Of a stretch of 64,000 nucleotides of DNA, positions 22,777 to 54,038 are shown one piece after another. Position 1 is the stretch's first letter. Each line of letters opens with the position of its first letter. The notes under the pieces are model-generated. The model had not been told where the DNA came from, ran no database searches, and worked only from the letters and a program-made list of their open reading frames with translations. A program made the translations under genes and the position numbers. Origin of the DNA: Aphrocallistes beatrix (taxonomy: Eukaryota; Porifera; Hexactinellida; Sceptrulophora; Aphrocallistidae); assembly GCA_963281255.1 (NCBI GenBank), contig OY725499.1, forward strand, positions 248,001 to 312,000, in the 5' to 3' direction.

Positions 22777-23484
22777 ATGCAACTTTGTGGTAAAATAAAT
22801 ATTCTCATTGTTTGTCATACTATTTTCAATATTCCAGTGGGGAATGCTCAAGCGATACAGGACAAGGAAGTTCAAAAGAGTATTGTGGATATTCATAATG
22901 AAGCAAGAAGAAGTGTAGATCCTACTGCTGCTAACATGAGGGAAATGAAATGGAATGATTGCCTCGCTGAAGCAACTTATGAATACTTGCAGCAATGCAG
23001 AATAACCCAAACTGTTCAAGAAATAGCTGCGGCAAAAAATTGCGAAGCATTAGACCAGGATGTTGGATTTAACCTTGCTGATAGTGATGAAACGATTACA
23101 GATATTATTTCTATAGTTACGGATTGGGTAAATGAAAAGTCATTTTACACACGTGTTTCTAATGATTGTGAGAGGAATCAATATTGCGGACATTATTTAA
23201 AAATGATTTTTCCAGAGAGCTTTCTTGTTGGATGCATTACTTTTGATAACCAAGGTGAATGTAGTGGTGGTGATCCGATGGGTTATTTCTTTTTATGCAG
23301 TTATGTAAAGAGAGGAGGAATTAATTCTCAACCTTATGCAATAGGAGAGAAGTGTTCAGAATGTATTGCCCCTTGGGACAACTGCAATGATGGATTGTGC
23401 ATTAGAAATGATGGAAGTAGCTTATTTCCATCTAAAACAAGTTCCATGATTATTTTCGCAATTGTGTTTCTATTTATGCTTTAA
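22777..23484 (+). CDS. Divergent CAP protein (clade B), GPI-type
   Basis: A 235-residue protein. The ATG at 22777 (MQLCGKI) is chosen because all clade-B paralogs begin MQLWGKI- or MQFGGEI-like, at a fixed distance from TATAAATA; the upstream in-frame ATG at 22741 lies right next to the box. Signal peptide ends near VGNAQA. HNEARRSVDPTAANMREM and NDCLAEATYEYL mark the CAP fold. The tetrad is eroded: the first His is absent (QQCRITQTVQ) and GENL has become GFNL. Glu120 and His139 (CGHYLKMIF) remain. The clade signature PESFLVGC and a changed CAP2 motif CSYVKRGG follow, then CSECIAPWDNCNDGLC and a hydrophobic GPI-like end. Single exon. Confidence 0.9.
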   Translation: MQLCGKINILIVCHTIFNIPVGNAQAIQDKEVQKSIVDIHNEARRSVDPTAANMREMKWNDCLAEATYEYLQQCRITQTVQEIAAAKNCEALDQDVGFNLADSDETITDIISIVTDWVNEKSFYTRVSNDCERNQYCGHYLKMIFPESFLVGCITFDNQGECSGGDPMGYFFLCSYVKRGGINSQPYAIGEKCSECIAPWDNCNDGLCIRNDGSSLFPSKTSSMIIFAIVFLFML

Positions 23485-24104
23485 AATGTATCCTTGCGTG
23501 TATGTGACTAATGTGTGCCAGTTTATTGATTCTCTAAATCCCATTACTAATCTGAAATTCCTGTGTGATTACAACGTAGTACTATTATTCTTAAGAGAAA
23601 ATATCTATTTTGTCATTTGTGATTCTTGTTACCAAAACATCATCTAAATTCTATCCTAATCAGGTGTGATCATGACGTATACTATATTTATATTAATTTT
23701 ATTGATTGAGAGGATAAGACTGAGATTAAAATGACTCTTCTATGCCAATGTCACTATAAAGGTAGCTCCACATACAGATGTTTGAGAATTTTGAAGAATA
23801 TATCGCACAGTTTTAGTCAAGAGAAGTAAATACTTTTTGTCGTATTTAAATATGTTTACCCTAAAAAGTTGAAATTTATATACGTACTTTGGTAAACGCG
23901 TAGCGTAGCTTTCACCCTATTGACACTTCTTGAGAATCATAAATTATCCAAATTGATGATCTTATCAAAGTAACACTTGTCTATCCTAGAGGCTTGTATC
24001 ATGACCTAATACTTAACATCCACTTCATTTTTAAAATCAAATTTCTATACCAAATCCATGAAACGATAGCTAGATGCTAAGCATGATATAACAACTTAAA
24101 AAAC
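23485..24104. other. 3' flank of clade-B CAP and 5' flank of next gene
   Basis: No gene. 23485-23830 is the shared clade-B 3' flank (also at 30197-30540, 32438-32740 and 39907-40250), including the half-palindrome CCACATACAGATGTTTGAGA. 23928-24104 duplicates 19655-19831. Confidence 0.6.
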
Positions 24105-24116
24105 TATATATTAAAA
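24105..24116 (+). promoter_or_regulatory. TATA box of CAP gene 24145
   Basis: TATATATTAAAA, 40 bp before the ATG. Confidence 0.5.
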
Positions 24117-24144
24117 CATTCTGTTCTACTACCCATCCAAAACA

Positions 24145-24840
24145 ATGCAGGTGATCGGTAATATTTTCCTTATACATTGTTTTATTCTCATTATCTTAAG
24201 AATAAATGGACAAATTCTGGAAGAAGAAGATCAAAAAGCGATACTAGACGCACATAATGAGGCTAGAATGAGCGTTGACCCTACTGCTGCCAACATGAGG
24301 GAGATGGAATGGAGTGATTGCCTCGCTGAAGTAGCTTATGACTATCTCAAGAAATGTACTGGGTTTGCACATAATCTAGATAGACAAACTGAAGCTGCGG
24401 CAAAGAGCTGTGAAGCATCAGATCAGGTTGTGGGAGAGAATTTATATCAGAGTCCAGGACCTGTAACAGACATTACTGCAGTTACTACACTTTGGGCAAA
24501 CGAAAAAGAAAACTATGATTTTGAATCTGGTATATGTAGTGATGTATGCGGGCACTATACACAAATGGTTTGGTTTGACAGCTTTTTGGTTGGTTGCGCA
24601 AAATATGACCAAGAGAATTGTGGTGAAACTGGAAAGATTGTTGCATGCAATTACGCAAGGGGAGGGAATATAATTGGTGAGAAACCCTATACAGATGGAG
24701 AGCAGTGTTCAGGGTGTGAATCTCCTTGGGATAATTGTAATGATGGATTATGTGTTAAAAGTGATGGAAGTAGCTTGTTGCCATCCATAATGGAGGTTAT
24801 ATTGATGAGTCATATCATTATACTTGCGTTTATGTTATAA
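24145..24840 (+). CDS. GPI-type CAP protein, tetrad clade (duplicate of 19872)
   Basis: A 231-residue CAP protein starting MQVIGNIF. Signal peptide ends RINGQ; tetrad His76 (GFAHNLDRQ), Glu98 (VGENLYQ), Glu120 (WANEKENY) and His137 (CGHYTQMVW) all present; CAP2 CNYARGGNIIG; Cys module CSGCESPWDNCNDGLC; KSDGSS and hydrophobic GPI-like tail. The N-terminal third is nearly the same as 19872. The central part (YQSPGPVTDI, ESGICSDVCGHY) is closer to 17555, so the gene looks like a mosaic from gene conversion. Flanks on both sides match 19872, so the duplication covered about 1.3 kb. An AATAAA lies about 95 bp after the stop. Confidence 0.92.
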   Translation: MQVIGNIFLIHCFILIILRINGQILEEEDQKAILDAHNEARMSVDPTAANMREMEWSDCLAEVAYDYLKKCTGFAHNLDRQTEAAAKSCEASDQVVGENLYQSPGPVTDITAVTTLWANEKENYDFESGICSDVCGHYTQMVWFDSFLVGCAKYDQENCGETGKIVACNYARGGNIIGEKPYTDGEQCSGCESPWDNCNDGLCVKSDGSSLLPSIMEVILMSHIIILAFML

Positions 24841-26368
24841 ATATAATTCTATGAAATGTTTGATTAAGAGTGTGTGTGTGCTCTATATTTAGGCCTCTAT
24901 GTGATCATGTATATGCTATTCAATTACTATGATGGAATAAATATTGTTGTCATGATTAAAAGTGTATGATTATTCTGTAAATGCCAACCTGAGCCATCAT
25001 AAAAGCGGGACGCAACGTTGAATTTAGCGGGACATGGCGGGGCGCAATAGAAATGTACTATATAAAGAAGACAAAAAATCAGGACATAATGGGCAAATTT
25101 CATGTGAAAGCGGGACACTCGAGAAAATTAACTCAATAGGAGAGTGAAAAAGCGGCACGTCCCGCCAAAAACGGGACATTTGGCAAGTATGTTCTTCTAT
25201 CATTTTATTATTGAGATAGAAATAAATAAACAGCTTAATCAGCTGTTCATCTATTTCGAGCTCAAAGTAACAACAATTAAGGTATAAAGTAACTGACAGA
25301 CGTAGCCAATAATCTTTAGAGTATAGCCAGCGATTAGGGAGGCTTGAAAACAAAAGCAAAACATTTCAGATGCAAGGCCGTAGTCACCAGGTGTGAAGTG
25401 GTCCGGTTGAGACTAAAAAGTGGTCAGGTTGAAATCGGGTCAACAGACAGTAGTTACGGCCCTGTGATGGGGGATACACCATTCAGCTAGGCACCTAGGG
25501 AAGCTGACAGCATTTATTTCACAAACTGCCTAGATATCTCTAGCTTTGGCAAAATGAATACAATCTTTGTCACAAAATTTAGTTAATCGCATACATCTGA
25601 CATTAGTCAAAAACCTTTTGCCTTGAACATAATAAAAGCGCGATAGTATTTTTGAATCTAATTGGACATGACTGAGTTACACAATGAGAAAATATCATAC
25701 ATCTTGCAGCCCAAAAATATAGACTTATCAAGTATTTTCAAAGGAAGCTCAAAATAAAATATAGGTTTTAAAGGTGTTATCAGTCCAGTCAAAAGCTGGA
25801 CAGTTGACTGAATAATTTTTGAATTAAAAGAGTAGCTGTACTTTGTGTGAAATTCTGAATCTTTATTTGTTGAAATACTACAATTGATTTACTTTCTGAT
25901 TGATCAATAAAGTCACATTTGATTGATTAGAAAGTAAATTAATTGAAAGATTTACACAAAGTACACTTCACTTCTTAAAATTGAAAAATTTTCCAAATTG
26001 ATGATCTTTTAAACTTAACACTTATCTATCCCGGAGGCTTGCATCATGAACTCACACTTGCAGTTCATTTATTATTCATTTTTCGGTTAATGGATGATAA
26101 ATTGGTAGAAAAATTGTTTTCTAATCCCTAGGCAATAATATCCGAATAACTGAAGTTGTAGTTGAATAATGACAGAACCAGCTGTGCAGATAATCAAAGT
26201 TCCACTCTATTGAGATAATAATTAGATAAACTATTTCCATTAATTTGATGAGAACAAATCAATTATTAAAATCCTTAAAGTTATTTTGTTAAGTACATCT
26301 CATTTTTAAAAAATACACTTAATTAAACTTTGTTAATACATTTCAGCCTATCTTTTAACAAATTAATC
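24841..26368. other. Repeat-rich spacer
   Basis: No gene. 24841-25285 duplicates the 3' flank of 19872, with a GGGAC-family MITE at 24980-25191. 25765-26345 is repeated at 27688-28175; it includes a partial inverted repeat around 25845-25970 (GTACTTTGTGTGAAATTC against GATTTACACAAAGTAC). Confidence 0.6.
24980..25191. mobile_element. GGGAC-rich MITE-like repeat, copy 3
   Basis: Starts AATGCCAACCTGAGCC and ends AACGGGACATTTGGCAAGTATG, giving short inverted ends (TGCCAA and TTGGCA). Internal AAAGCGGGAC and GCGGCACGTCCCGCC. It is the fullest of three related copies. Confidence 0.6.
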
Positions 26369-26629
26369 TTTCTTGTGGGATGCGCTGCTTTTGATTATAC
26401 AGAATGCGGTAGTGTAGGTCCAAATCCTTATTATTTTGTATTCAGCTATGCAAAGGGAGGAGGGAACTATATCCAACCTTATGCACTAAGAGAGAAGTGT
26501 TCAGAATGTATATCCACTTGGGACAACTGCAATGATGGATTGTGCACTAGAAATGATGGAAGTAGCTTATCTCCATCTAAAACAAGCTTCGTTATTATTT
26601 TCGCAATTGTGTTCATATTTATGCTATAA
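26369..26629 (+). pseudogene. Clade-B CAP 3' half
   Basis: Encodes FLVGCAAFD, the altered CAP2 motif FSYAKGGG (the conserved Cys is Phe), CSECISTWDNCNDGLC and the GPI-like tail. Everything upstream of FLVGC is missing: the sequence runs directly into a repeat that is not coding elsewhere (21140-21175, 28160-28195). It has no signal peptide or start of its own. Confidence 0.85.
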
Positions 26630-27056
26630 ACTGTATCTTTGCGTGTTTGACTATTGTGTGCCAGTGTCATGATTCTCTAACCCTATTACTAATCAGAAAC
26701 TCCTGTCCTGTGTGATTATCAGCATAGCATTATTATTATTGAAAAATATATTCTTATATTGGGATAGTATTGGCAGAAATTATACTACACTGCCTGAACA
26801 AAAGTATTCGTACACCCCATAATTCCCCATACAAATAGTTATAATACTGATTTTTTAACTTTCGAATATTTTGGAGCACTCTAATACATACATACATACA
26901 TACATACATACATACATACATACATACATACATACATACATACATACATACATACATACATACATACATACATACATACATACATACATACATACATACA
27001 TACATACATACATACATACATACATACATACATACATACATACATACATACATAAA

Positions 27057-27088
<32 letters not shown>

Positions 27089-27370
27089 CGGACAGACGAG
27101 ATACTCAGTCCATGCCATAGGGGTATTTCCTTAAAGGAGCTGCATTAAAAATGCACTCCATCGAAGTAATAATTAGATAAGATGAGATACTCTTTCTAAA
27201 CCTTTTCCGTTAAACTTCTCTGAAACAAATTGTTGATCACTCCTTAAAGTACTTTTGCTAAGTACATCTCATTTAAAAAAATATATTCAATAAAACTTAG
27301 ATTATTTAAATGTACATAGTACTAATCGGAATTAGTTTTTATCATTAATGAAATTAAATCTAGTTTAGGC
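26630..27370. other. 3' flank, microsatellite and 5' flank
   Basis: No gene. A clade-B 3' flank, then a long TACA microsatellite (26885-27086), then the AGTACATCTCATTT-type 5' flank repeat (27160-27310). Confidence 0.6.
26885..27086. repeat. (TACA)n tetranucleotide microsatellite
   Basis: About 200 bp of nearly pure TACA repeats with one interruption (AAATACA) near 27055. The MYVC and HTYI open frames across it are artefacts. Confidence 0.97.
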
Positions 27371-27422
27371 TATAAATAAATGGTATTCTTATGACAAATT
27401 TAATTCTATTAACCGAGACAAA

Positions 27423-27638
27423 ATGCAACTTTGGGAAAAAAATAGCATTTTCATTGTTCGTCACATTATTTTCAATATTCAAGTGGAGAGTGCCCAAGCG
27501 ATACTAGATGAAGAAGCAGTTCAAAAGACTTTTGTGGATATTCATAATAATGCAAGAAGAAGTGTAGATCCTACCGGTGCTGACATAAGGGAAATGGAAT
27601 GGAGTGATTGCCTCGCTGAAGCTGCTTCCAAAATCTAG
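27423..27638 (+). pseudogene. Clade-B CAP 5' fragment
   Basis: A TATAAATA box at 27371 is followed by a normal signal peptide (MQLWEKN...VESAQA) and HNNARRSVDPTGADIREMEWSDCLAEAA, then a stop where the paralogs continue YEYL. The following DNA (27688-28175) is the repeat that also precedes the 3' half at 26369. The two fragments are pieces of one or more rearranged genes. If transcribed it would make only a 71-residue secreted peptide. Confidence 0.85.
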
Positions 27639-28250
27639 ACTAGAATTTTCTTGGGAAAGCTCAACAAAAAAAATAGATCGCGATGGTGCTATCAGTCCAG
27701 TCAAAAGCTGGACAGTTGACTAAATAATTTTGGGATTAAAAGAGTAGCTGTACTTTGAGTGAAATTCTGATTCTTTATTTGTTGAAATACTACAATTGAT
27801 TTACTTTCTGATTGATCAATAAAGTCACTTTTGATTGATTAGAAAGTAAATTAATTGAACTTGCATCATGAACTCACACTTGCAGTTCATTTATTATTCA
27901 TTTTTCGGTTAATGGATGATAAATTGGTCGAAAAATTGTTTTCTAATCCAAGGCAATAATATCCGAATAACTGAAGTTGTAGTTGAATAATGACAGAACC
28001 AGCTGTGCAGATAATCAAAGTTCCACTCTATTGAGATAATAATTAGATAAACTATTTCCATTAATTTGATGAGAACAAATCAATTATTAAAATCCTTAAA
28101 GTTATTTTGTTAAGTACATCTCATTTTTAAAAATACACTTAATAAAACTTTGTTAATATATTTTGACCTATCTTTTAACAAATTAATCTATAAATGATAG
28201 CTGATCGAAACCAAAGTTGAAGCCTTAATTTATTGAACACTAGTTTTGTC
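27639..28250. repeat. Repeat block duplicated from 25.77-26.35 kb
   Basis: No gene. 27688-28175 matches 25765-26345 closely, with a small deletion. It ends in the AGTACATCTCATTT-type 5' flank of the next CAP copy. Confidence 0.75.
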
Positions 28251-28302
28251 TATAAATATCAAATCTAAGTCTAACAAAGTTAATTTTATTAACCGAGACA
28301 AA

Positions 28303-29051
28303 ATGCAATTTTGCGGTGAAATCAACATTTTCATTTTTAGTCAAATTATTTTCAATATTCCATTGCAACATTATGAATATCCACAATAGTCTTTTGGTCT
28401 GCCTCATCTCGTATCACTTGAGCAGTAATGCTCAAACGATGCGAAATGAAGCAGACCAAATACTATTGTGGATATTCGTAATGATGCAAGGAGAAGTGTT
28501 GAGCCAACGGCTGCTAACATGAGGGAAATGGAATGGAATAATTGCCTCGCTGAAGCAATACACGAATACAACAGCATTGCCAAATCAGACAAACTGTTCG
28601 ACAAATAACTGCAGGCAAAGAAATTGTGAAGCATCAGACCATTGGATTCAACCTTATAATTAGAGGTCAAACGATTACAGATTTTATTTCTTTAGTTATG
28701 GATTGGGCAAACGAAAAGACATTTTACAGACGTGTTTCTAACGATTGTGAGGAAGATAAATTTTGCATACATTATACACGAATTATTTTTCCTGAGAGCT
28801 TTCTTGTTGGATGCGCTACTTTTGATTACGAAGATGAATGTGATAGTCTAGGTTATTATTTTGCATGCAGTTATGCAAAGGGAGGACAACGCTATGACAA
28901 ACCTTATGCAATAGGAGAGAAGTGTTCAGAATGTATTGCCCCTTGGGACAACTGCAATGATGGATTGTGCATTAGAAATGATGGAAGCAGCTTATTTCCA
29001 TCTAAAATAAGTACCGTGATTATTTTCATTGTGTTCATATTTGTGCTATAA
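28303..29051 (+). pseudogene. Clade-B CAP pseudogene with inverted duplication
   Basis: The signal-peptide region (MQFCGEINIF) is interrupted by a 59-bp inverted copy of the segment around the cleavage site, producing a hairpin at 28365-28487 and an in-frame stop at about 28388. Further frame changes occur near 28555-28640 (for example AATACACGAATACAACAGC). From about 28640 a CAP frame is open to 29051: DWANEKTFYRRV, HYTRIIFPESFLVGC, CSYAKGGQ, CSECIAPWDNCNDGLC, GPI-like tail. The protein cannot be made from the natural start. Confidence 0.9.
28365..28487. repeat. Inverted duplication (hairpin) inside CAP pseudogene
   Basis: The left arm CTTTTGGTCTGCCTCATCTC pairs with the right arm GAAATGAAGCAGACCAAATA; arms of about 58 bp around an AGTAAT centre. 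It is a local fold-back copy of coding sequence. Confidence 0.85.
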
Positions 29052-29494: not shown

Positions 29495-30196
29495 ATGCAA
29501 CTTTGGGGTAAAATAAATATTCTCATTGTTTGTCATACTATTTTCAATATTCCAGTGGGGAATGCTCAAGCGATACTCGAAGCTGACCAAAAGGCTATTG
29601 TAGATATTCTTAATGAAGCAAGAAGAAGTGTAGATCCTACTGCTGCTAGTATGAGGGAAATGAAATGGAGTGATTGCCTCGCTGAAGCAACTTATGAATA
29701 CTTGCAGCAATGCAGAATATCCAAAACTGTTCAAGAAATAGCTGCGGCAAACATTTGCGAAGCATCAGACCAGGATGTTGGATTTAACCTTGCTGGGCGT
29801 AGTGAAACGATTACAGATGTTATTTCTATAGTTACGGATTGGGTAAATGAAAAGTCATTTTACAGACGTGTTTCTAATGATTGTGAGAGGTTTCAATATT
29901 GCGGACATTATTTACGAATGATTTTTCCTGAGAGCTTTCTTGTTGGATGCATTACTTTTGATAACCAAGGTGAATGTGGTGGTGATTCGGTAGGTTATTC
30001 TTTTGCATGCAGTTATGCAAAGGGAGGAGGAATTAATTCTCAACCTTATGCACTAGGAGAGAAGTGTTCAGAATGTATTGCCCCTTGGGACAACTGCAAT
30101 GATGGATTGTGCACTAGAAATGATGGAAGTAGCTTATTTCCATCTAAAACAAGTTCCATAATTATTTTCGCAATTGTGTTCCTATTTGTGCTTTAA
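29495..30196 (+). CDS. Divergent CAP protein (clade B), GPI-type
   Basis: A 233-residue protein; start MQLWGKINIL by comparison with paralogs, 42 bp after TATAAATA. Signal peptide ends VGNAQA. ILNEARRSVDPTAASMREM: the His of the normal HNEARR has become Leu. Tetrad eroded: first His absent (QQCRISKTVQ), GENL is GFNL; Glu in DWVNEKSFY and His in CGHYLRMIF remain. PESFLVGC, CSYAKGGG, CSECIAPWDNCNDGLC and a GPI-like tail follow. It is very close to 22777 at both ends and in the core. Single exon. Confidence 0.9.
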   Translation: MQLWGKINILIVCHTIFNIPVGNAQAILEADQKAIVDILNEARRSVDPTAASMREMKWSDCLAEATYEYLQQCRISKTVQEIAAANICEASDQDVGFNLAGRSETITDVISIVTDWVNEKSFYRRVSNDCERFQYCGHYLRMIFPESFLVGCITFDNQGECGGDSVGYSFACSYAKGGGINSQPYALGEKCSECIAPWDNCNDGLCTRNDGSSLFPSKTSSIIIFAIVFLFVL

Positions 30197-31654: not shown

Positions 31655-32437
31655 ATGCAACTTTGGGGTAAAATAAGTATTTTCATTGTTTGTCATATTA
31701 TTTTCAATATTCGAGTGGGGAATGCTCAAGCGATAGTAGATGAAGCTGACCAAAAGGCTATTGTAGATATTCATAATGAAGCAAGAAGAAGTGTAGATCC
31801 TACTGCTGCTAACATGAGGGAAATGAAATGGAGTGATTGCCTCGCTGAAGCAGCTTATGAATACTTGCAGGAATGCGGAATAGAAATCACAAGATTTCAA
31901 GCAATAGCTGCGGGGAAAAATTGTGAAGCATCAGACCGGGATGTTGGATTTAACTCTATTTTTAGAGCAGAAACGATTACAGATGTTATTTCTATAGTTA
32001 CGGATTGGGAAAACGAAAATACATTTTACACACGTGTTTCTAATGATTGTGAGGAAGGTAAATATTGCGGACATTATTTACGAATGATTTTTCCTGAGAG
32101 TTTTCTTGTTGGATGCACTACTTTTGATCACGAAGCTGAATGTGGTGGTGGTGGTAGTGGTGGTGGTAGTGGTGATGGTAGTGATGGTAGTGATGGTAGT
32201 GATGGTAGTGATGGTAGTGATGGTGATGGTGGTGGTTATTTCTTTGCATGCAGTTATGCAAAGGGAAGAGGAAGTTATTCTCAACCTTATGCACTAGGAG
32301 AGAAGTGTTCAGAATGTATGGCCCCTTGGGACAACTGCAATGATGGATTGTGCACTAGAAATGATGGAAGTAGCTTATTTCTATCTAAAACAAGTTCCGT
32401 GATTATTTTCACAATTGTGTTCCTATTTGTGCTTTAA
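31655..32437 (+). CDS. Clade-B CAP protein with Gly/Ser/Asp repeat insertion
   Basis: A 260-residue protein, about 27 residues longer than its sisters. Start MQLWGKISIF; signal peptide ends VGNAQA; HNEARRSVDPTAANMREM. The first tetrad His is missing (QECGIEITRF), GENL is GFNS, Glu in DWENENTFY and His in CGHYLRMIF remain. After EAEC a low-complexity run of Gly, Ser and Asp (repeated GSD units) precedes YFFACSYAKGRG. It lies in the loop before the CAP2 strand, where sisters have only GGD-type residues. Cys module and GPI-like tail are normal. The frame is kept because the repeat unit is in threes. Confidence 0.9.
   Translation: MQLWGKISIFIVCHIIFNIRVGNAQAIVDEADQKAIVDIHNEARRSVDPTAANMREMKWSDCLAEAAYEYLQECGIEITRFQAIAAGKNCEASDRDVGFNSIFRAETITDVISIVTDWENENTFYTRVSNDCEEGKYCGHYLRMIFPESFLVGCTTFDHEAECGGGGSGGGSGDGSDGSDGSDGSDGSDGDGGGYFFACSYAKGRGSYSQPYALGEKCSECMAPWDNCNDGLCTRNDGSSLFLSKTSSVIIFTIVFLFVL
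32144..32236 (+). repeat. In-frame GGT/AGT/GAT coding minisatellite
   Basis: Repeats of GGTAGTGAT and GGTGGT encode the Gly/Ser/Asp run. Only this copy carries the expansion; a shorter GGTGGTGAT seed exists at the same place in 22777 and 29495. Confidence 0.9.
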
Positions 32438-34648: not shown

Positions 34649-35346
34649 ATGCAACTTTGGAGAGAAATTAGATTTTTAATTTTTAGTCACATTATTTTCA
34701 ATATTCCTGTTGGGAGTGCTCAAGCGATACAAGACAAGGGACTTCAAAAGACTATCGTGGATATTCATAATGATGCAAGAAGAAGTGTAGATCCTACCGC
34801 TGCTAACATGAGGGAAATGGAATGGAGTGATTGCCTCGCGGAAGCAGCATACGAATTCGTGAGCAATGCCAAACAATGCAAATTATTCAAGAAATAACTG
34901 CGGCAAAAGATTGTGAAGCATCAGACCAGGATGTCGGATTTAACCTTATTATTAATGCTGTAATGATTACAGATATTAATTCTTTAGTTATGAATTGGGT
35001 GAACGAAAAGCCGTTTTACAGACGTGTTTCTAACGATTGTGAGGAAGATTAATTTTTCTTACATTACACAAAAATTATTTTTCCTGAGAGCTTTCTTGTT
35101 GGATGCGCTACTTTTGATTTCGAAGCTGGATGTGGTTCGATAGGTTATTATTCTATATGCAGTTACGCAAAGGGAGGAGGAAGTTATACTCAACCTTATG
35201 CACTAGGAGAGAAGTGTTCAGAATGTATTGGCCCTTGGAACAACTGCAATGATGGATTGTGCACTAGAAATGATGGAAGTAGCTTATTTTCTTCTAAAAT
35301 AAGTTCCATGATTATTTTCGCTATTGTGTTCATATTTATGCTTTAA
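34649..35346 (+). pseudogene. Clade-B CAP pseudogene, frameshift plus stop
   Basis: Starts normally (MQLWREIRFLIF...VGSAQA, HNDARRSVDPTAANMREM, SDCLAEAAYEF). A one-base deletion near 34860 moves the frame to a stop at 34897. In the restored frame a second lesion, a Lys codon changed to TAA at about 35050, ends it again. The rest (FPESFLVGC, CSYAKGGG, CSECIGPWNNCNDGLC, GPI-like tail) follows to 35346. Two independent lesions make it a pseudogene rather than a sequencing error. Confidence 0.9.
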
Positions 35347-37602: not shown

Positions 37603-38297
37603 TTATAGCAGAAATATGAACACAATTGCGAACATAATCACATAACTTGTTTTAGATGGAAATAAGCTACTTCCATCATTTATAGTGCACAATCCATCAT
37701 TGCAGTTGTCCCAAGGGGCTATACATTCTGAACACGTGTCTCCTAGTGTGTAAGGTTGCTCATAGCTTCCATCTCTCTTTGCATAACTGCATAAAACATT
37801 ATAATCTATTCTACCACAATCATTTTGATCAAAAGTAGCGCATCCAACAAGAAAACTCTCTGGAAAAATCATCCGTTTATATTCGTCGCAATTTTCAGTT
37901 TCTTCACATTGATTAGTTTCATGACTATATGTTAGTTGTCCGCTAGCCCAATCCAGAACTACAGGCCCAAAATCTGTTTTTGGTTGGGTAGCAAAAAGAA
38001 CGGAAAATCTAACATCCTGATCTGATGCTTCACAATTTTTTGCCGCAGCCACTTGTTGAACAGTTGGGATATCTTGGCATTGCGTGAGGAAGTCGTGTGA
38101 TGCTTCAGCGAGGCAATCACTCCATTCCATTTTCCTCATGTTAGCAGCAGTAGGGTCTACACTTCTTCTTACATCATTATGAATATCTACAATAATCTTT
38201 ATGTCTGCCTCGCCTTGTATCGCTTGGGAATTTCCCACTGGAATATTGAAAATAATGTGACAAAAAATGAAAATGCTGATTTACCCCAAAGTTGCAT
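37603..38297 (-). pseudogene. Clade-B CAP with frameshifted signal peptide
   Basis: A minus-strand TATAAATA box (38335-38342) precedes ATG at 38297. One A is missing in GGTAAATCAGC compared with paralogs (GGTAAAATCAGC), so the signal peptide runs out of frame and stops early. From about 38238 the mature frame is fully open to 37603: HNDVRRSVDPTAANMRKM, DWASGQLTYSH, CDEYKRMIFPESFLVGC, CSYAKRDG, CSECIAPWDNCNDGLC, GPI-like tail. All four tetrad positions are lost (RFSV for GENL, Glu for the second His, Gly for the second Glu). It is a very young pseudogene, a sequence error, or it uses a non-standard start. Confidence 0.8.
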
Positions 38298-39163: not shown

Positions 39164-39205
39164 TATAAATAGCAAACATATCTCAGTGCCAATAATCGAT
39201 ACAAA

Positions 39206-39906
39206 ATGCAACTTTGGAGAGAAATTAGCTTTTTAATTTTTGGTCACATTATTTTCAATATTCCAGTGGGGAATGCTCAAGCGATACTAGACGGAGCTAA
39301 CCAAAATACTATTGTGGATATTCATAATGATGCAAGAAGAAGTGTAGATCTTACTGCTGCTGACATGAGGGAAATGAAATGGAGTGATTGCCTCGCTGAA
39401 GCAACTTACGAATATCTCAAGCAATGCCAAATAACCCAAACTATTCAAGAAATAGCTGCGGCAAAAAATTGTGAAGCATCAGACCAGGATGTTGGATTCA
39501 ACCTTTTTTTAGAGCACAAATGATTGTAGATATTATTTCTATAGTTACGGATTGGGTAAATCAAAAGCAATTCTACCTTCGTGAATCTCAACGATGTGAT
39601 GGTCAAAATTGCTTCGAATATGTGCGAATGATTTTTCCTGAAAGCTTTCTTGTGGGATGCGCTACTTTTGATAATTCTGAATGCGATGGCGCAGCTGTAA
39701 ATCCTTATTATTTTGCATGTAGCTATGCAAAGGGAGGAGGAAACTATTTCCAACCTTATGCACTAGGGGAGAAGTGTTCAGAATGTATTGCCCCTTGGGA
39801 CAACTGTAATGATGGATTGTGCACTAGAAATGATGGAAGTAGCTTATCTCCACCTAAAACAAGTTTCGTGATTATTTTCGCAATTGTGCTCATATTTATG
39901 CTTTAA
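39206..39906 (+). pseudogene. Clade-B CAP with single homopolymer frameshift
   Basis: TATAAATA box at 39164. The first frame runs MQLWREISFLIF...HNDARRSVDLTAADMREM...YLKQC...DQDVGFNLFLEHK and stops at 39523. The second frame (39520-39906) completes it: DWVNQKQFY, CFEYVRMIFPESFLVGC, CSYAKGGG, CSECIAPWDNCNDGLC, GPI-like tail. The break is in a T-run (AACCTTTTTTTAGAGC) where paralogs have one more base. This is the only lesion, so a real frameshift and a sequencing error are both possible. Tetrad: second His replaced by Glu, second Glu by Gln (VNQKQ). Confidence 0.85.
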
Positions 39907-42620: not shown

Positions 42621-43235
42621 CATATACGTATCTAATTTTCGAACTAATGCACATCTATCTTTCGAACTAACGCCAACATCGGAATTAATTCGAACTAATA
42701 CATATCTTACTTTCCAAATAATGCCAACATCAACATAAATTCGAACTAATGCCAAAATCAGAAATTCAAATAATGCCAAAATATAAATTAGAACTAATTC
42801 ATGCGCCCTGTTTGGTTGGTGGAACGTAAGACATATTGAGCCCCGATACTTTTGCCAGCACAAGGGCCAGACGATCCTTAATGCACCCTGAAACGAGTAC
42901 GTACTTCAAAAATTAAATTCCAAAATTTATAACTAAATGTAACTACCAGTTTAGAGCACTTCGAATTGAAAACAATTGACAAATTTTTATTTCAGTGACT
43001 GATTCAATGCTCCCTGCTTGCTATTTGATATTTGAAGTTTATTAAGTCAATTAACTCTTACAGTTAATTGAATTAATAAATCATGGATTAAGTATACGGG
43101 TTTGTATGACTGATGGATGATGAACCTGTAAAACAACGTATTTTATATGTTCAGTATAATGAGATAATAATTAGATCTTAATTCTAGTTTTGGCTATAAA
43201 TAATTGACAAACTTATTTCTATTAACCGAGACAAA

Positions 43236-43922
43236 ATGCAATTTGGGGGTGAAATCAGCATTTTCGTATTTTGTCACATTATTTTCAATATTCCAGTGGG
43301 GAATGCTCAAACGATACTAGACAAGGAAGTTCAAAAGACCATTGTAGAGATTCATAATGATGCAAGAAGAAGTGTAGATCCTACTGCTGCTAGTATGAGG
43401 TAAATGAAATGGAGTGATTGCCTCGCTGAAGCATCTTACGAATCCTTTGAGCGGGGCCTAGTACACACCCAAGTTCAAGAAATAGCTGCGGCCAAAAATT
43501 GTGAAGCGTCAGACCAATCAGTTGGAACAAACTATTTTCTAAGTAATCAACCAATAACAGATATTGCTACTATAGTTACGGATTGGGTAAATTTTAAGCC
43601 ATTATATACTCGTGAAACAGGTTAACGTGAAGATGTTCTAAATTGCGTCAAATATGTTCGAATGATTTTTCCTGAGAGCTTTCTTGTTGGATGCACTATT
43701 TTTGATCAAGAGGTTTCCAGCGCTTATTTTTTTATCTGCAGTTATGCAAAGGGAGGAGGATATGACCAACCTTATGCACTAGGAGAGAAGTGTTCAGAAT
43801 GTATTGCCCCTTGGGACAACTGCAATGATGGATTGTGCACTAGAAATGATGGAAGTAGCTTATTTTCTTCTAAAGCAAGTTCTGTGATTATTTTCGCAAT
43901 TGTGTTCATATTTATGCTATAA
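43236..43922 (+). pseudogene. Clade-B CAP pseudogene, recent copy of 49411
   Basis: Nearly identical to the intact gene at 49411-50097, including both flanks. Two nonsense changes break it: GAA to TAA at 43401-43403, and CAA to TAA at 43623-43625. The adjoining Cys codon TGT is also CGT. All other features (signal peptide, PESFLVGC, CSYAKGGG, Cys module, GPI-like tail) are preserved. The TATAAATA box at 43195 is intact. Inactivation must be recent. Confidence 0.92.
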
Positions 43923-44786
<864 letters not shown>

Positions 44787-44828: not shown

Positions 44829-45524
44829 ATGCAACTTTGGGGCAAAATTAACATTTTCATTTTTGGTCACATTATTTTCAATATTCCAGTGGGGAATGCT
44901 CAAGCGATACAAGACAAGGAAGTTCAAAAGACCATTGTGGATATTCATAATGATGCAAGAAGAAGTGTAGATCCTGCTGCTGCTAACATGAGGGAAATGA
45001 AATGGAGTGATTGCCTCGCTGAAGCATCTTACGAATATCTCGAGCCATGCCAAAAAACCCAAACTGTTCAAGAAATAGCTGCGGCAAAAGATTGTGAAGC
45101 ATCAGACCAGGATGTTGGATTTTCTATTTTTCAAGGTAGTGAACCAATACTGCTACCATATATTGCTACTATAGTTAGGAGTTGGACAAACGCACAGTCA
45201 TATTACAATCATGAGATTAATCAATGTGAGTTAAGTTGTCCTCATTATGTACGAATGATTTTTCCAGAGAGTTTTCTTGTTGGATGCGCTATTTTGGATG
45301 TAGTTGATTGCGATAGTACAAGGTATTTCTTTTTATGCAGTTATGCAAAGGGAGGAGGAAGTTATACCCAACCTTATGCACTAGGAGAGAAGTGTTCAGA
45401 ATGTATGGCCCCTTGGGACAACTGCAATGATGGATTGTGCACTAGAAATGATGGAAATAGCTTATTTCGATCTAAAACAAGTTCCATGATAATTTTCGCA
45501 ATTGTGTTCATATTTATGCTATAA
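44829..45524 (+). CDS. Divergent CAP protein (clade B), GPI-type
   Basis: A 231-residue protein; start MQLWGKINIF, 42 bp after TATAAATA (44787). Signal peptide ends VGNAQA; HNDARRSVDPAAANMREM. Tetrad: first His absent (EPCQKTQTVQ), GENL replaced by GFSI, second Glu position altered (WTNAQSYY), second His kept (CPHYVRMIF). PESFLVGC, CSYAKGGG, CSECMAPWDNCNDGLC and GPI-like tail. The loop before HY is shortened (QCELSC). Single exon. Confidence 0.9.
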   Translation: MQLWGKINIFIFGHIIFNIPVGNAQAIQDKEVQKTIVDIHNDARRSVDPAAANMREMKWSDCLAEASYEYLEPCQKTQTVQEIAAAKDCEASDQDVGFSIFQGSEPILLPYIATIVRSWTNAQSYYNHEINQCELSCPHYVRMIFPESFLVGCAILDVVDCDSTRYFFLCSYAKGGGSYTQPYALGEKCSECMAPWDNCNDGLCTRNDGNSLFRSKTSSMIIFAIVFIFML

Positions 45525-46003
45525 ACTGTATCCTTGTGTGTTTGTGTGTGACTATTGTGTGTCAGTGTCTTGATTTCCATTACCTCATTACTAATCAGAA
45601 ACTCCTCTGTGATTACCAGAATAGTATTATTATTAATTAATTATTAATGAAAAATATGGATTTTGTCATTTGTGATTTGTGATTCTTGTGTATTAATAGT
45701 ATTTAAATCCTATACTACTCAGGTGTGATCATTATATAGTCATTTTTTGCTGAGTGGACGAAACTGTTAGATTAAAAGAGTAAATAAAACTTTTTTACAC
45801 CATTATATCCATAACGGTAACTCTCTATCCAGATGTTTGGGATTTCTGAAGAATATATCACACAGTTTTACTCAAAGAAACTTAAATAATAATTGAATAC
45901 AGATAATAATGATAAATACAAATTGAGATCGTTCCTTGTTCAAGTAGTGAGCCTAAGATAACACACAATAATCACACAAATCATTGTATGATATGGTTTA
46001 CAA
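45525..46003. repeat. Clade-B 3' flank
   Basis: No gene. Near-identical to 47817-48290, as part of a 2.29-kb tandem duplication (see 46204). Confidence 0.7.
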
Positions 46004-46195
46004 TCCATATTCCTACTAATTGGCACAGATAACCAAGAAGATGATTATTTGGAATCAAATTTCTTTAATCATTTTAATGCACAAACCTTCATTACAAGTG
46101 GTATCTCAAGGCCGAATACATTCTTAACATTGAAATCCTTTCGTATATAGTTTAAAACCAACAACGTTGCTACCTCTTTAGACTAGGTTTAGTCT
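46004..46195 (-). pseudogene. Minus-strand CAP C-terminal remnant, copy e
   Basis: AAACCTTCATTACAAGTGGTATCTCAAGG and CCTTTCGTATATAGTTTAAA correspond to the 54588 gene tail. More decayed than copies a-d; body deleted. Confidence 0.7.
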
Positions 46196-46203
46196 ACCAA
46201 CCT

Positions 46204-47082
46204 AATATGATCTAATATGCGATATCGTCTTCTAATCCTTGAAGTAAATCCTTGTATTTAAACTCGATTAATTCGAACTAATGCCAAAATGAGAAATTCA
46301 AACTAATGCAGGTGCCCTGTTTGGTTGTTGGGGCGTATGATATATAGAACCCACGAGACTTTTTTCCAGCACCTAGGTCCAGACTATCCTTAATGCGGCC
46401 CTGAAACGAGTACGTACTTCTAAACTTATAATCTAAAAAATTGATAACTAAATGTAACTACCAGTTTAGAACACTTCTAATCGAAAAATTATGAAAAATT
46501 TTTATTTTAGTGACTGATTCAATGCTCCCTGCTTGGTATTTGATATTTGAAGTTTATTAAGTCAATTAACTCTTACAGTTAATTGAATTAATAAATCATA
46601 GATTTTGCATGCGGGTTTGTATGACTGATGGATGATGAACCTGTAAAACAACGTATTTTATCTGTTCAGCATACTGAGATAATAATTGGCTCAATGAGAT
46701 CTACTTATCAAAATATTTTCTATAAGACTTCTTTCCAATATTCTTTATACAAACATCTTTACTTTGCGATCTTTCATTCAAAAGTTATTTGCTCTAAAGG
46801 TTAGAACAGCATAATCATCTATAATTCGCATATTAGATCATACAAAGTTTCGGCTGCACTAGAAATCCAATATTTTGAAGTAATAATTAGATAAGATGAG
46901 AAATTCTATCTAGACCTTTTCCGTTAAACTTCTTTAAAACAAATTAATGGTCAAACCTTAAAGTAATTTCCTTAAGTACATCTCATTTTTGTAAAAGACA
47001 CTCAATGAAACTTTGTTTAATTAAAATGTATATACTGATCGAAACAAGTTTTATCATTGATGATCTTAATTCTAGTTTTGGC
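46204..47082. repeat. 5' part of 2.29-kb tandem duplication, copy 1
   Basis: No gene. Almost base-for-base identical to 48491-49369 (offset 2287 bp). Contains a remnant of the CAP upstream element and the TTCGAACTAATGCC repeat fragment. Confidence 0.85.
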
Positions 47083-47123
47083 TATAAATAATTGACAAAC
47101 TTATTTCTATTAACCGAGACAAA

Positions 47124-47816
47124 ATGCAATTTGGAGGTGTAATCAGCATTTTCATCTTTTGTCACATTATTTTCAATATTCCAGTGGGGAATGCTCAAGT
47201 GATACAAGACAAGGAAGTTCAAAAGAGTATTGTGGATATTCATAATGAAGCAAGAAGAAGTGTAGATCCTACTGTTGCCAACATGAGGGAAATGAAATGG
47301 AGTGATTGCCTCGCTGAAGCGACCTATGAATCCTTTGATGATGGATGCCTGACAGGTGGAAATATTCAAGCAATAGCTGCAGCAAAAAATTGTGAAGCTT
47401 CAGACCAGGAGGTTGGATTAAACTTTTTTGTTAGTCTACAACCAATAACAGATGTTTCTACTCCAGTTATGGATTGGGCAAACCAAAGGTCAGGATATAT
47501 TCCTGAATCTAATCAATGTGTGGAGGGTCAACAATGCGTCAATTATATATTAATGATTTATCCTGAGAGTTTTCTTGTTGGATGCGCTATTTTTGATAAT
47601 CCTGAATGCAGTAATAAAGAGCTTTTATGTAGCTATTCAAAGGGAGGAGCACTCTATGGCCAACCTTATGCACTAGGAGAGAAGTGTTCAGAATGTATTT
47701 CTCCTTGGGACAACTGCAATGATGGATTGTGCGCTAGAAATGATGGAAATAGCTTATTTCCATCTAAAACAAGTTCCATAATTATTTTCGCAATTGTATT
47801 CATATTTATGCTATAA
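47124..47816 (+). CDS. Divergent CAP protein (clade B), tetrad lost
   Basis: A 230-residue protein; start MQFGGVISIF, TATAAATA at 47083. Signal peptide ends VGNAQV. HNEARRSVDPTVANMREM. All four tetrad positions are changed: no first His, GLNF for GENL, WANQRSGY for WANEK, and CVNYILMIY for CGHYTQM. The disulfide framework and YPESFLVGC, CSYSKGGA, CSECISPWDNCNDGLC and GPI-like tail remain. It keeps the CAP scaffold without the metal or active-site residues. Single exon. Confidence 0.9.
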   Translation: MQFGGVISIFIFCHIIFNIPVGNAQVIQDKEVQKSIVDIHNEARRSVDPTVANMREMKWSDCLAEATYESFDDGCLTGGNIQAIAAAKNCEASDQEVGLNFFVSLQPITDVSTPVMDWANQRSGYIPESNQCVEGQQCVNYILMIYPESFLVGCAIFDNPECSNKELLCSYSKGGALYGQPYALGEKCSECISPWDNCNDGLCARNDGNSLFPSKTSSIIIFAIVFIFML

Positions 47817-49369: not shown

Positions 49370-49377
49370 TATAAATA
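49370..49377 (+). promoter_or_regulatory. TATAAATA box of CAP gene 49411
   Basis: GGCTATAAATAATTG, 41 bp before the ATG, identical to 47083 and 43195. Confidence 0.65.
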
Positions 49378-49410
49378 ATTGACAAACTTATTTCTATTAA
49401 CCGAGACAAA

Positions 49411-50097
49411 ATGCAATTTGGGGGTGAAATCAGCATTTTCATCTTTTGTCACATTATTTTCAATATTCCAGTGGGGAATGCTCAAACAATACTAGACAAG
49501 GAAGTTCAAAAGACCATTGTAGAGATTCATAATGATGCAAGAAGAAGTGTAGATCCTACTGCTGCTAGTATGAGGGAAATGAAATGGAGTGATTGCCTCG
49601 CTGAAGCATCTTACGAATCCTTTGAGCGGGGCCTAGTACACACCCAAGTTCAAGAAATAGCTGCGGCAAAAAATTGTGAAGCGTCAGACCAATCAGTTGG
49701 AACAAACTATTTTCTAAGTAATCAACCAATAACAGATATTGCTACTATAGTTACGGATTGGGTAAATTTTAAGTCATTATATACTCGTGAAACAGGTCAA
49801 TGTGAAGATGTTCTAAATTGCGTCAAATATGTGCGAATGATTTTTCCTGAGAGCTTTCTTGTTGGATGCACTATTTTTGATCAAGAGGTTTCCAGCGCTT
49901 ATTTTTTTATCTGCAGTTATGCAAAGGGAGGAGGATATGACCAACCTTATGCAATAGGGGAGAAGTGTTCAGAATGTATTGCTCCTTGGGACAACTGCAA
50001 TGATGGATTGTGCACTAGAAATGATGGAAGTAGCTTATTTTCTTCTAAAGCAAGTTCTGTGATTATTTTCGCAATTGTGTTCATATTTATGCTATAA
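49411..50097 (+). CDS. Divergent CAP protein (clade B), tetrad lost
   Basis: A 228-residue protein; start MQFGGEISIF. Signal peptide ends VGNAQT. HNDARRSVDPTAASMREM. Tetrad gone: first His absent (FERGLVHTQVQ shifts the spacing), GTNY for GENL, WVNFKSLY, and CVKYVRMIF for CGHYTQM. PESFLVGC, CSYAKGGG, CSECIAPWDNCNDGLC and GPI-like tail are kept. It is the intact parent or sister of the pseudogene at 43236. Its 5' flank is nearly the same as that of 47124 although the core differs. Single exon. Confidence 0.9.
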   Translation: MQFGGEISIFIFCHIIFNIPVGNAQTILDKEVQKTIVEIHNDARRSVDPTAASMREMKWSDCLAEASYESFERGLVHTQVQEIAAAKNCEASDQSVGTNYFLSNQPITDIATIVTDWVNFKSLYTRETGQCEDVLNCVKYVRMIFPESFLVGCTIFDQEVSSAYFFICSYAKGGGYDQPYAIGEKCSECIAPWDNCNDGLCTRNDGSSLFSSKASSVIIFAIVFIFML

Positions 50098-50213
50098 ACT
50101 GTATCCTTACGTGTTTGTGGCTATTGTATTCCAGTGTCATGATTCTCTAAACCTATTAATACTAAAAAACTCCTGTCCTGTGTGATTATGTGTGTGTGTG
50201 ATTTATTATAGCA

Positions 50214-50214
<1 letters not shown>

Positions 50215-50296
<82 letters not shown>
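50215..50296. repeat. (ATT)n microsatellite, short allele-like copy
   Basis: About 80 bp, in the same 3'-flank position as the 260-bp array at 44038. It shows repeat-length change since duplication. Confidence 0.95.
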
Positions 50297-50297
<1 letters not shown>

Positions 50298-50825: not shown

Positions 50826-50826
50826 G

Positions 50827-51105
<279 letters not shown>

Positions 51106-52210: not shown

Positions 52211-52577
52211 CAGGGGCCTTATTCACTAAGAAAACTTAAGATTTGCTTAACTTTTGAATCTTCAAAATTAGAAGAGATTTTTAAAGAATTCAAATAGATT
52301 GCATACTCTATTAATTTTAAGTGGTACAATTGAAATGCTTGACAAATTTTGATCTATATTTTAAGTTAAGTATGACGTCATAATACTTAAGTATGACATC
52401 ACGAATATTTCGAGAGTGACTTGGAATATTTCCAGTATTTAGGTAGTTTATATTTCTATTGGTATCATTGAACATCTATTTACCCAAATCGTAATGCAAC
52501 TCTTCAAATTTTCCACTATACGTATAAAGTTATATAAAGTTAAGCAAATCTTAAGTTTTCTTAGTGAATAAGGCCCC
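52211..52577. mobile_element. MITE with long inverted repeats, copy 2
   Basis: Same family as 18277-18670: CAGGGGCCTTATTCACTAAG ... CTTAGTGAATAAGGCCCC, with one internal deletion of about 30 bp relative to copy 1. It sits between the facing AATAAGGCCGAATT repeat blocks. Confidence 0.8.
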
Positions 52578-52975
52578 AGGTGACTAAGTTAAATATGCAG
52601 TTTGCTTAAAAAACGCCTTAACTGGAGAATTTCTAAAATAATTCGCATCAAAAACCCTTAGAATCTCCCCTGGTACCGAACAAACTGAAGAATGCCTCCA
52701 ATCGACCCTCCATTCTTTATTTCACAAAACAAACACCATTCTTCCTCTAGAACAAATTGATCATTCGGCCGTATTCCAGTTTCGACATTTCAACCTTATT
52801 CCATTCTTGAATAATTCGGCCATATTCCAACTTTGTAAATTCGACTTTATTCCAGTCTTAAAATATTCCAACCTTGTTCCCGTTTTGACAATTCGACCTT
52901 ATTCCGCTTTCCCGATGAGATATTCTTTCTAAACTTTTTTCCAGTTAAATTTTTAAAACAAATTAATGATTAATT
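52578..52975. other. Spacer with reversed AATTCGGCC repeats
   Basis: No gene. 52750-52915 has TTCGGCCTTATTCC-type repeats, the reverse complement of those at 52000-52180, so the MITE at 52211 lies inside a larger inverted repeat. Confidence 0.55.
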
Positions 52976-53140
52976 CAGTGGTTCCCAACCTGGAGTCCAT
53001 GGACCCCTTAGTGGTCCACAGAAGATATCAGGGGGTCCACAGGATTCGAAATTTAGTATAGCTGTTAATAGGAGGGGGTCCACAGGATATAGGAAAATTG
53101 CTATAGGGGGTCCACAATCAAAGAAGGTTGAAAACCGCTG
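52976..53140. mobile_element. 165-bp hAT-type MITE, perfect 8-bp duplication
   Basis: Ends CAGTGGTTCCCAACCT and AGGTTGAAAACCGCTG; GATTAATT on both sides (52968-52975 and 53141-53148). Internal GGGGGTCCACAGGAT repeats. It interrupts the AATTAATGATTAATT...CCTTAAAGTAATTT flank that is continuous at 46950. Confidence 0.92.
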
Positions 53141-53344
53141 GATTAATTAATAACCTTAAAGTAATTTCGCTAAGTACATCTCATTTTTTCAAAATCCACT
53201 TTATAAAACTTTGTTTAATAACATCCCTATAATGTATATACTGATCGAAACCATCAAGTTTTAACATTATTGAACTTAAGACTAGTTTTGACTATAAATA
53301 ATTAATATTCTTATAACAATCTTAATTCTATTAACAGAGACAAA

Positions 53345-54038
53345 ATGCAATATTGAAATAGGCATCTTCATTTTTTGTCACATTATTCTCAATATTCCAA
53401 TGGGGAATGCTCAAGTGATACAAGACAAGGAAGTTCAAAAGAGTATTGTAGATATTCATAATGAAGCAAGAAGAAGTGTAGATCCTACTGCTGCTAACAT
53501 GAGGGAAATGGAATGGAGTGATTGCCTCGCTGAAGCCGCTTATGAATATTTGCAGCAATGCTTAAAAATGCAAACTGTTCAACAAATAGCTGCGGCAAAG
53601 GATTGTGAAGCATCAGACCAGGAGGTTGGGTCAAACATTCTTATTAGAGCTGACTCGATTACAGATATTATTACTGTAGTTACGAATTGGGCAGACGAAA
53701 AGTCATTTTACAGACGTGTTACTAATGATTGTGAGGAGGAGAAAGATTGCGGGCATTATATACGAATGATTTTTCCTGAGAGCTTTCTTGTTGGATGCGC
53801 TATTTTTTATTATGGACCTGATTGTGGGTTTGAAGAGTATGATTTTTTATGCAGCTATGCAAAGGGAGGGGGAAGCGAGAACCAACCTTATGCACTAGGA
53901 GAGAAGTGTTCAGAATGTATTGCCCCTTGGGACAACTGCAATGATGGATTGTGCACTAGAAATGATGGAAGTAGCTTATCTCCACGTGAAACAAGTTTCG
54001 TGATTATTTTCGCAATTGTGTTCATATTTATGCTATAA
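53345..54038 (+). pseudogene. Clade-B CAP with broken signal peptide
   Basis: TATAAATA at 53293 and an ATG at 53345, but the signal-peptide frame reads MQY then stop because of small deletions compared with 47124. An ATG at 53400 (MGNAQVI) opens an otherwise perfect 212-residue mature frame: HNEARRSVDPTAANMREM, WADEKSFY, CGHYIRMIFPESFLVGC, CSYAKGGG, CSECIAPWDNCNDGLC, GPI-like tail. Without a signal peptide it could not enter the secretory pathway. Second Glu and second His of the tetrad are kept; first His and GENL are not (GSNI). Confidence 0.85.

Follow-up and report, generated by a model that had tools for sequence, protein, structure and literature searches.

The window, that is, the whole stretch of 64,000 nucleotides that was analysed, contains a tandem array of CAP genes, each in a single frame. 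The features are as follows, with tetrad residues given in the order His1, Glu1, Glu2, and His2 (HEEH when intact).

13686..14411, minus strand: T14411, single-frame CAP gene of clade T, tetrad HEEH; Pfam CAP 1.1e-16
15810..16580, plus strand: T15810, CAP gene, tetrad HEEH (residues in alignment)
17555..18250, plus strand: T17555, CAP gene, tetrad HEEH (residues in alignment)
19872..20564, plus strand: T19872, CAP gene, tetrad HEEH (residues in alignment)
22777..23484, plus strand: B22777, intact clade-B gene without His1, Phe in place of Glu1, Glu2 and His2 kept; Pfam CAP 1.5e-09; GLIPR1 best PDB match, 1.9e-20
24145..24840, plus strand: T24145, CAP gene, tetrad HEEH; Pfam CAP 1.7e-16; GLIPR1 best PDB sequence match, 1.2e-30
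26366..29051, plus strand: three fragments or broken copies resembling clade B (26366-26623, 27444-27635, and 28459-29051)
29495..30196, plus strand: B29495, intact clade-B gene, tetrad state as B22777; Pfam CAP match
31655..32437, plus strand: B31655, intact clade-B gene, Glu at the His1 position, Glu1 replaced by Phe, both Glu2 and His2 retained, with a Gly/Ser/Asp insert; Pfam CAP match
34673..35340, plus strand: broken clade-B copy
37603..38280, minus strand: B37603, clade B, frameshift at the signal peptide, none of the four tetrad residues kept (translation, alignment)
39173..39906, plus strand: 39206 copy, clade B, split into two overlapping frames (translation)
43174..44122, plus strand: broken copy of clade B with 98% identity to 49349-50296 and dissimilar flanks, a transferred gene-sized block
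44829..45524, plus strand: B44829, intact clade-B gene, Glu2 replaced by Ala, His2 kept; Pfam CAP match
45525..47123, plus strand: spacer and promoter upstream of 47124, compared with the spacer before 49411
47124..47816, plus strand: B47124, intact clade-B gene, no tetrad residue kept; Pfam CAP 0.00059, a score that just equals the cutoff
49411..50097, plus strand: B49411, intact clade-B gene, no tetrad residue kept, two cysteines missing; Pfam CAP match
53298..54038, plus strand: 53345 copy, clade B, frameshift at the start (signal peptide), Glu2 and His2 kept (translation, alignment)
54588..55283, minus strand: T55283, CAP gene, tetrad HEEH (residues in alignment)
58350..59159, plus strand: C58350, clade-C CAP gene, tetrad HEED, with a stalk rich in Thr and a hydrophobic tail; Pfam CAP 2.3e-12

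Six of the nine clade-B genes cited in the original prediction are intact, and the other three (37603, 39206, and 53345) are frameshifted or split; broken clade-B copies or fragments number eight. Residues were compared in an alignment of 24 copies, which leaves aside the 39206 copy, the fragments, and the broken copies within and downstream of the window.

Membership of the CAP family was assessed with the profile PF00188 (curated cutoff, 21.1 bits). All 10 proteins scanned scored at or above the cutoff, with 47124 at exactly 21.1 bits, and 14411 was matched separately. AlphaFold2 models of mature T24145 and of 47124 had pLDDT values of 89.2 and 79.4, respectively, and the order of helices and strands was nearly the same in the two predicted structures, for which the alpha-beta-alpha CAP fold is the candidate. 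Mammalian GLIPR1/GLIPR1L1 (PDB 3q2r) was the best sequence match for both 24145 and 22777 and, like the array proteins, has a short Cys-rich stretch after the CAP domain; however, aligned GLIPR1 has His/Glu/Glu/His, whereas clade B does not. The motif PESFLVGC was conserved in all eight clade-B copies as predicted, although the cysteines, also said to be conserved, were not all kept: in 49411, alone among the 24 aligned copies, the cysteines of columns 74 and 171 are missing, and their joint loss would fit the loss of one putative disulfide. The last 14 residues had a mean hydropathy of 2.69 to 3.16 in all eight B copies, compared with -1.24 to 0.11 in four secreted (clade S) copies. The array proteins are probably membrane-anchored, with a tail of GPI type as judged by composition alone.

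The tetrad was complete in all six T genes, as had been predicted, and in none of the eight clade-B copies with one long frame. These eight lack the first His, as anticipated, and Glu1 as well. The reported states of His2 were likewise reproduced: it is retained in 22777, 29495, 31655, 44829, and 53345 and replaced by Asn in 47124, Lys in 49411, and Glu in 37603, with Glu read by eye in the second frame of 39206. The variants previously listed for the GxN motif were incomplete, and GFNS (31655), GSNI (53345), and RFSV (37603) are to be added. Glu2, which had not been considered, is retained in 22777, 29495, 31655, and 53345 and replaced by Ala in 44829, Gln in 47124, Phe in 49411, and Gly in 37603. 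Clade B was monophyletic with 100% bootstrap support, and within it the metal tetrad was taken apart stepwise. On the tree the losses form a nested series, in line with the proposed order: His1 and Glu1 disappeared on the stem, Glu2 was lost in subclade B2, and His2 inside B2, although the bootstrap support of B2 is just 44-48%.

Tetrad loss happened more than once in the array, which contradicts its proposed restriction to one expanding clade. C58350 (HEED, in the window) and several downstream copies lost residues separately. In clade C, His2 is gone in five of six copies, four of which also lack His1 and three Glu2, while Glu1 is kept in all six; in clade S, one of four copies has Asn at His2 and the other three have an intact tetrad. 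Exclusivity to clade B was therefore ruled out.

Selection was evaluated by codon models run with custom scripts rather than PAML (F3x4, rescaled M0 branch lengths, and naive empirical Bayes). Runs with six copies used the intact B genes, runs with eight added the frameshifted 37603 and 53345, and site models of T genes used four of the six copies. A clade-B dN/dS (omega) near 1, which the original prediction had named as evidence of relaxed selection, was found for the tetrad segment (mean omega 0.87; p = 0.55 versus 1) and the C-terminal Cys region (1.13; p = 0.79) and was not found for the whole CDS (0.64; p = 0.0023) or the N-terminal part (0.34; p = 0.0011). A branch model of 11 genes gave an omega of 0.75 for clade B, not clearly below 1 (p = 0.069), and omega was low in T genes (0.20-0.26). 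Comparison of M1a and M2a for the six intact B genes yielded 2dl values of 45.2 with gapped columns included, 31.9 with them excluded, 25.9 with padding, and 25.0 for the tetrad segment alone. The value of 25.9 was reached in none of 105 null simulations, of which 25 were clonal, with a highest value of 8.8, and 80 included block recombination as a crude representation of gene conversion, with a highest value of 10.5. The same comparison gave 0.5 for T genes, 11.6 (p = 0.003) for the C-terminal Cys segment of clade B, which also signals sites with omega >1, 13.4 for clade C, and 13.1 for clade S. Since clade S keeps the tetrad in three of four copies yet has fast sites, fast sites and tetrad loss are not strictly coupled.

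These models show that clade B is a mix of fixed sites and sites with omega >1 rather than uniformly relaxed, and that a minority of its positions evolve faster than neutral, the effect being strongest in the tetrad segment. In the eight-copy set, 12 of 25 flagged sites lay within five columns of a tetrad position, compared with 40 of 182 columns (p = 0.0017); this clustering varied with the radius (p = 0.086 within three columns and 0.010 within seven), and several flagged columns adjoin gaps. No significant clustering at the tetrad was found in the six-copy set (4 of 10 flagged sites within five columns; p = 0.15).

Relaxed constraint after duplication, with the tetrad decaying in spare copies on their way to becoming pseudogenes, is a possible but rather doubtful explanation of this pattern. 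The eight broken copies, the near-neutral tetrad segment, the branch-model estimate, and the four different residues substituting Glu2 would all be expected from it, but the whole-CDS and N-terminal omegas differ from 1, a class of sites with omega >1 is required, six frames are intact, and the two cysteines of 49411 were lost together, as a putative disulfide pair might be. In simulations of one gene, 4% of 400 trials were still free of stop codons after 0.1 neutral substitutions per site (24% at 0.05 and 1.5% at 0.15). Pure decay of clade B was ruled out by the N-terminal constraint together with the omega >1 class; decay still accounts for the broken copies.

The subset of fast positions, many of them in the tetrad segment, points to a recognition surface that is changing, and not to decay alone. 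Our preferred reading, held tentatively at a probability of about 0.42, is that the array represents a diversifying extracellular binding surface in a GLIPR1-like, GPI-tailed tandem CAP family. The N-terminal part, PESFLVGC, and most cysteines of clade B remain fixed. The side of the CAP cavity that carried the tetrad may have been turned into a surface for extracellular binding, which would no longer depend on a cation and would be under selection to differ among copies. Candidate partners include an egg coat, a microbe, or other tissue, all of them possible. The proposal that clade B has a new role on a tetrad-free CAP scaffold is partly supported by the nested loss and the omega >1 sites, although the tetrad-segment omega is close to 1, the loss recurs outside clade B, and tetrad-free CAP proteins were already known.

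Within the binding-surface reading, gamete recognition is an unlikely specific role, suggested by analogy with sperm proteins. Urabin is described as a GPI-anchored ascidian sperm CRISP with a PR-1/CAP domain (PMC9265791; PMC8849226), and mammalian GLIPR1L1 as located on sperm and GPI-linked in some species (PMC6824042), so that a CAP domain and a sperm GPI anchor recur in several species in these accounts. Positively selected sites are reported in the CAP domain of rodent sperm CRISP and, more widely, of mammalian CRISPs and Moniliophthora PR-1 (PMC7278046; PMC8120714), but the selection described there acts between species or isolates, whereas the array consists of paralogues of one genome that exchange sequence. 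The likeness to Urabin, compared here by description, lies in the CAP (PR-1) domain and a putative C-terminal signal of GPI type; the array proteins have the CAP domain, and their hydrophobic ends are candidates for the signal peptide and the GPI signal. Urabin is further characterised by testis expression and by binding to the egg-coat VC57/VC70. The mitochondrial code of the host is not the ascidian one, which reduces the link to Urabin to analogy. ATA aligned to Ile 24 times and to Met three times (one homologue), and COX1 and cytochrome b, the two genes compared, scored higher with table 24 than with table 13 or 5. A tunicate host, first suggested by Gly-like AGR codons in cytochrome b, was rejected on this codon count and these code scores, which are strong evidence short of proof. 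An exon-wise search gave no match to cellulose synthase; PF00379 and PF00100 were also without a match in genome searches, and were equally without one in control genomes and thus uninformative. Surface proteins of immunity or allorecognition, diversified by microbes or foreign tissue, are a comparably improbable form of the same reading: the birth and death of tandem copies, their exchange of sequence, and the omega >1 sites fit them equally well, but no finding here is specifically in their favour.

The CAP proteins SmVAL4, HpVAL-4, and tablysin-15 are described as lacking the cation-binding histidines (PMC4118828; PMC5893428), as do the clade-B copies that lost both, but they are presented there as single proteins, whereas the array exhibits stepwise loss among close paralogues in more than one clade. 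SmVAL4 and HpVAL-4 are reported to bind sterol without a full tetrad, and putative catalytic residues conserved in Pry1 to matter little for sterol export, which would suit ordinary CAP lipid or sterol carriers whose dispensable tetrad was lost neutrally. This explanation has little probability, given that sterol binding by Pry1 is reported to require Mg, that the T genes hold the tetrad in six of six copies under an omega well below 1, and that sites with omega >1 are not expected from neutral loss.

The spacers upstream of 47124 and 49411 were 97% identical (42 of 1593 sites differ, none of them in 46100-46899), but the genes differ by 17.5%, from which it follows that copies exchange sequence. 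Spacers, promoters, and gene ends have been exchanged among copies while the mature cores remain diverged. A simple recent duplication of 44829, 47124, and 49411 was ruled out, as spacers and genes differ in age. Among the best four matches per window, none in the array and four outlying loci qualified as a close donor of the central part of 47124: top matches were 74-83% identical in 90-base windows from codons 61-121, and one 78-base match reached 87%. That the assembly laid out divergent alleles in tandem is very improbable: the near-identical spacer common to 47124 and 49411 and the high polymorphism of many invertebrates would fit, but allelic spacers should diverge too, and 800 spacer bases without a substitution beside 17.5% gene divergence argue against it. 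A further elaboration, for which we see only a slight chance, is that the metal-free CAP cavity serves as a variable pocket, with conversion homogenising promoters and gene ends and moving gene-sized blocks, selection keeping the cores divergent, and the dismantling recurring in neighbouring clades.

The role of the tetrad in the CAP cavity is unsettled, and close paralogues within one genome that keep, half lose, or wholly lose it provide a natural test series. This series spans two clades with different orders of loss and could be used to test how metals, lipids, and partners are bound. Should the cavity side prove to determine specificity, the CAP fold would gain a role akin to that of other variable recognition proteins.

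The 100.5 Mb genome comprises 28 contigs, and the window corresponds to C13:248001–312000. Matches to CAP (PF00188) spanned C13:261.7k–358k, reaching past the window end, and contig C13 carried 26 of the 29 matches in the genome, these counts being lower bounds. The alignment covered 24 copies, each having a single long frame, namely six of clade T, eight of clade B (two frameshifted at the signal peptide), six of clade C (one inside the window), and four of clade S (all downstream). No introns were evident in the CAP copies from the genomic sequence alone. The CAP domain was detected in all 10 proteins scanned, and GLIPR1 was the top match when 24145 and 22777 were searched against the PDB. 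The C-terminus was strongly hydrophobic in clade B (hydropathy 2.69–3.16) and hydrophobic in clades T and C (1.11–3.26); clade S copies had no such stretch. Eight clade-B copies were broken or fragmentary (26366, 27444, 28459, 34673, 39206, 43174, and the frameshifted 37603 and 53345), and contig C1 carried one broken clade-B-like copy.

Several further features were observed in the array, beside it, and elsewhere in the genome:
Window 33–11422, minus strand: tandem of six single-frame sulfotransferase genes (PF00685), adjoining the CAP array.
Window 12092–13249, minus strand: protein of 386 residues, apparently spanning the membrane several times, that matched no Pfam entry at 0.01.
Window 31655–32437: clade-B gene whose CAP domain contains a ~25-residue Gly/Ser/Asp repeat.
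Window 56796–57365: broken T-like copy, inverted relative to 54617–55715.
Window 31119, 33483, 36106, 46067, and 48330, minus strand: weak inverted, stop-containing spacer matches to the CAP C-terminal part.
C10:78557–79204, minus strand: isolated, diverged CAP gene, the whole tetrad seemingly missing by eye.

We then compared the metal/active-site tetrad (His1/Glu1/Glu2/His2, HEEH) among the copies.

Tetrad states of the aligned CAP copies (dash, residue absent; positions above 64000 lie downstream of the window)
Clade T: HEEH in 6/6
Clade B, 22777 and 29495: -FEH
Clade B, 31655: EFEH
Clade B, 53345: -SEH
Clade B, 44829: -FAH
Clade B, 47124: -LQN
Clade B, 49411: -TFK
Clade B, 37603: -FGE
Clade C, 71810: HEEH
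Clade C, 58350: HEED
Clade C, 67529: LEQD
Clade C, 74655: REQD
Clade C, 84634: PEEG
Clade C, 96173: PEKG
Clade S: HEEH in 3/4; 109347, HEEN

The tetrad loss originally predicted thus stands with corrections, HEEH being absent from all eight aligned clade-B copies and present in all six of clade T. Its restriction to one clade does not hold, since five of the six clade C copies and 109347 of clade S were also altered. On the 24-copy tree, some nodes of which were weak, the minimum numbers of irreversible losses were two for His1, one for Glu1, three for Glu2, and five for His2. Glu1 was lost on the clade-B stem and retained in clade C; YTQ and the Trp following it were also altered in clade B. 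The predicted models of 47124 (pLDDT 79.4, low at the Cys-rich end) and 24145 (pLDDT 89.2) showed a nearly identical order of elements. The cysteines of columns 74 and 171, present in 23 of the 24 copies and both missing in 49411, probably pair with each other.

Next, we examined selection. Among the six intact clade-B genes, Nei-Gojobori ratios were 0.36 for both the signal peptide and the N-terminal part, 1.04 for the tetrad segment, 0.99 for the PES-CSY segment, and 0.56 for the C-terminal part with the tail; overall ratios were 0.27 for clade T (four of six copies) and 0.53 for clade C. Likelihood estimates of omega for clade B, each tested against 1, were 0.64 for the whole coding sequence (p=0.0023), 0.34 for the N part (p=0.0011), 0.87 for the tetrad segment (p=0.55), 0.37 for PES-CSY (p=0.041), and 1.13 for the C-terminal Cys segment (p=0.79). 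The branch model gave 0.20 for clade T, 0.31 for the stem, and 0.75 for clade B (p=0.069 against 1).

Comparison of the M1a and M2a codon site models gave a 2dl of 25.9 for clade B after gap padding, a value reached by none of 25 clonal and none of 80 recombining null simulations. By segment, 2dl was 25.0 for the tetrad, 11.6 for C-terminal Cys, 2.3 for N, 2.6 for PES-CSY, 2.4 for the tail, and 0.2 for the signal; the other clades gave 13.4 (C), 13.1 (S), and 0.5 (T). The run on eight copies, including the frameshifted 37603 and 53345, flagged 25 sites, among them Glu2 and three alternate positions after Glu1, and 12 of the 25 lay no more than five columns from a tetrad position (p=0.0017; p=0.086 within three columns and 0.010 within seven). 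With six copies, four of 10 flagged sites did so (p=0.15). These results thus provide good support for diversifying change in clade B and are only suggestive of its concentration on the tetrad itself.

Sequence exchange was also evaluated. The spacers before 47124 and 49411 differed at 42 of 1593 sites, with none in 46100–46899, and the coding differences were 125/684 sites between 44829 and 47124 and 120/687 between 47124 and 49411. The 5′ end of 47124 resembled 49411 and its 3′ end 44829, the middle being close to neither. The broken copy at 43174–44122 was 98% identical to 49349–50296, with dissimilar flanks. A run-length test yielded p <0.05 in seven of 28 pairs (1.4 expected). Of these runs, the tetrad segment held two; the remaining five lay in the signal, the N-terminal part, or the tail. 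As a separate observation, TATAAATA begins 41–48 bases upstream of the start codon in all six intact clade-B genes.

Contig C28 was an animal-type mitochondrion of 18 kb. When COX1 and cytochrome b were each codon-aligned against one PDB chain, TGA aligned with Trp, AAA mostly with Lys, and ATA with Ile (24 times), Leu (12), Val (11), and Met (3); the 27 aligned AGA codons fell on Gly (9), Ser (7), Ala (5), and others (6), and AGG was absent from these two genes. Table 24, a hemichordate code, fitted best of the three codes tried, the best PDB scores under tables 13, 5, and 24 being 746, 753, and 781 bits for COX1 and 383, 382, and 392 bits for cytochrome b. These alignments and scores indicated that ATA is read as Ile, which argues against a tunicate host (table 13 has ATA as Met). 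The code is unusual, with ATA as Ile and AGA aligning about equally with Gly and Ser; C28 also carries a predicted tRNA whose anticodon is TCT. An exon-wise search of the genome found no match to cellulose synthase.

In the literature, CAP proteins are described in sperm (PMC9265791, PMC8849226, PMC6824042) and CAP domains under selection (PMC7278046, PMC8120714), and Pry1 is described with Mg on its tetrad (PMC4921858). Neither an array of this kind nor recurrent loss of the tetrad in paralogous copies was described in the titles and abstract openings of the open-licence papers surveyed. Tetrad-lacking CAP proteins are on record (PMC4118828, PMC5893428), and the loss is accordingly not new to CAP proteins. 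The proposal of a new role using the CAP scaffold without the tetrad was half right: tetrad loss is not unique to clade B, and clade B is beyond mere decay.
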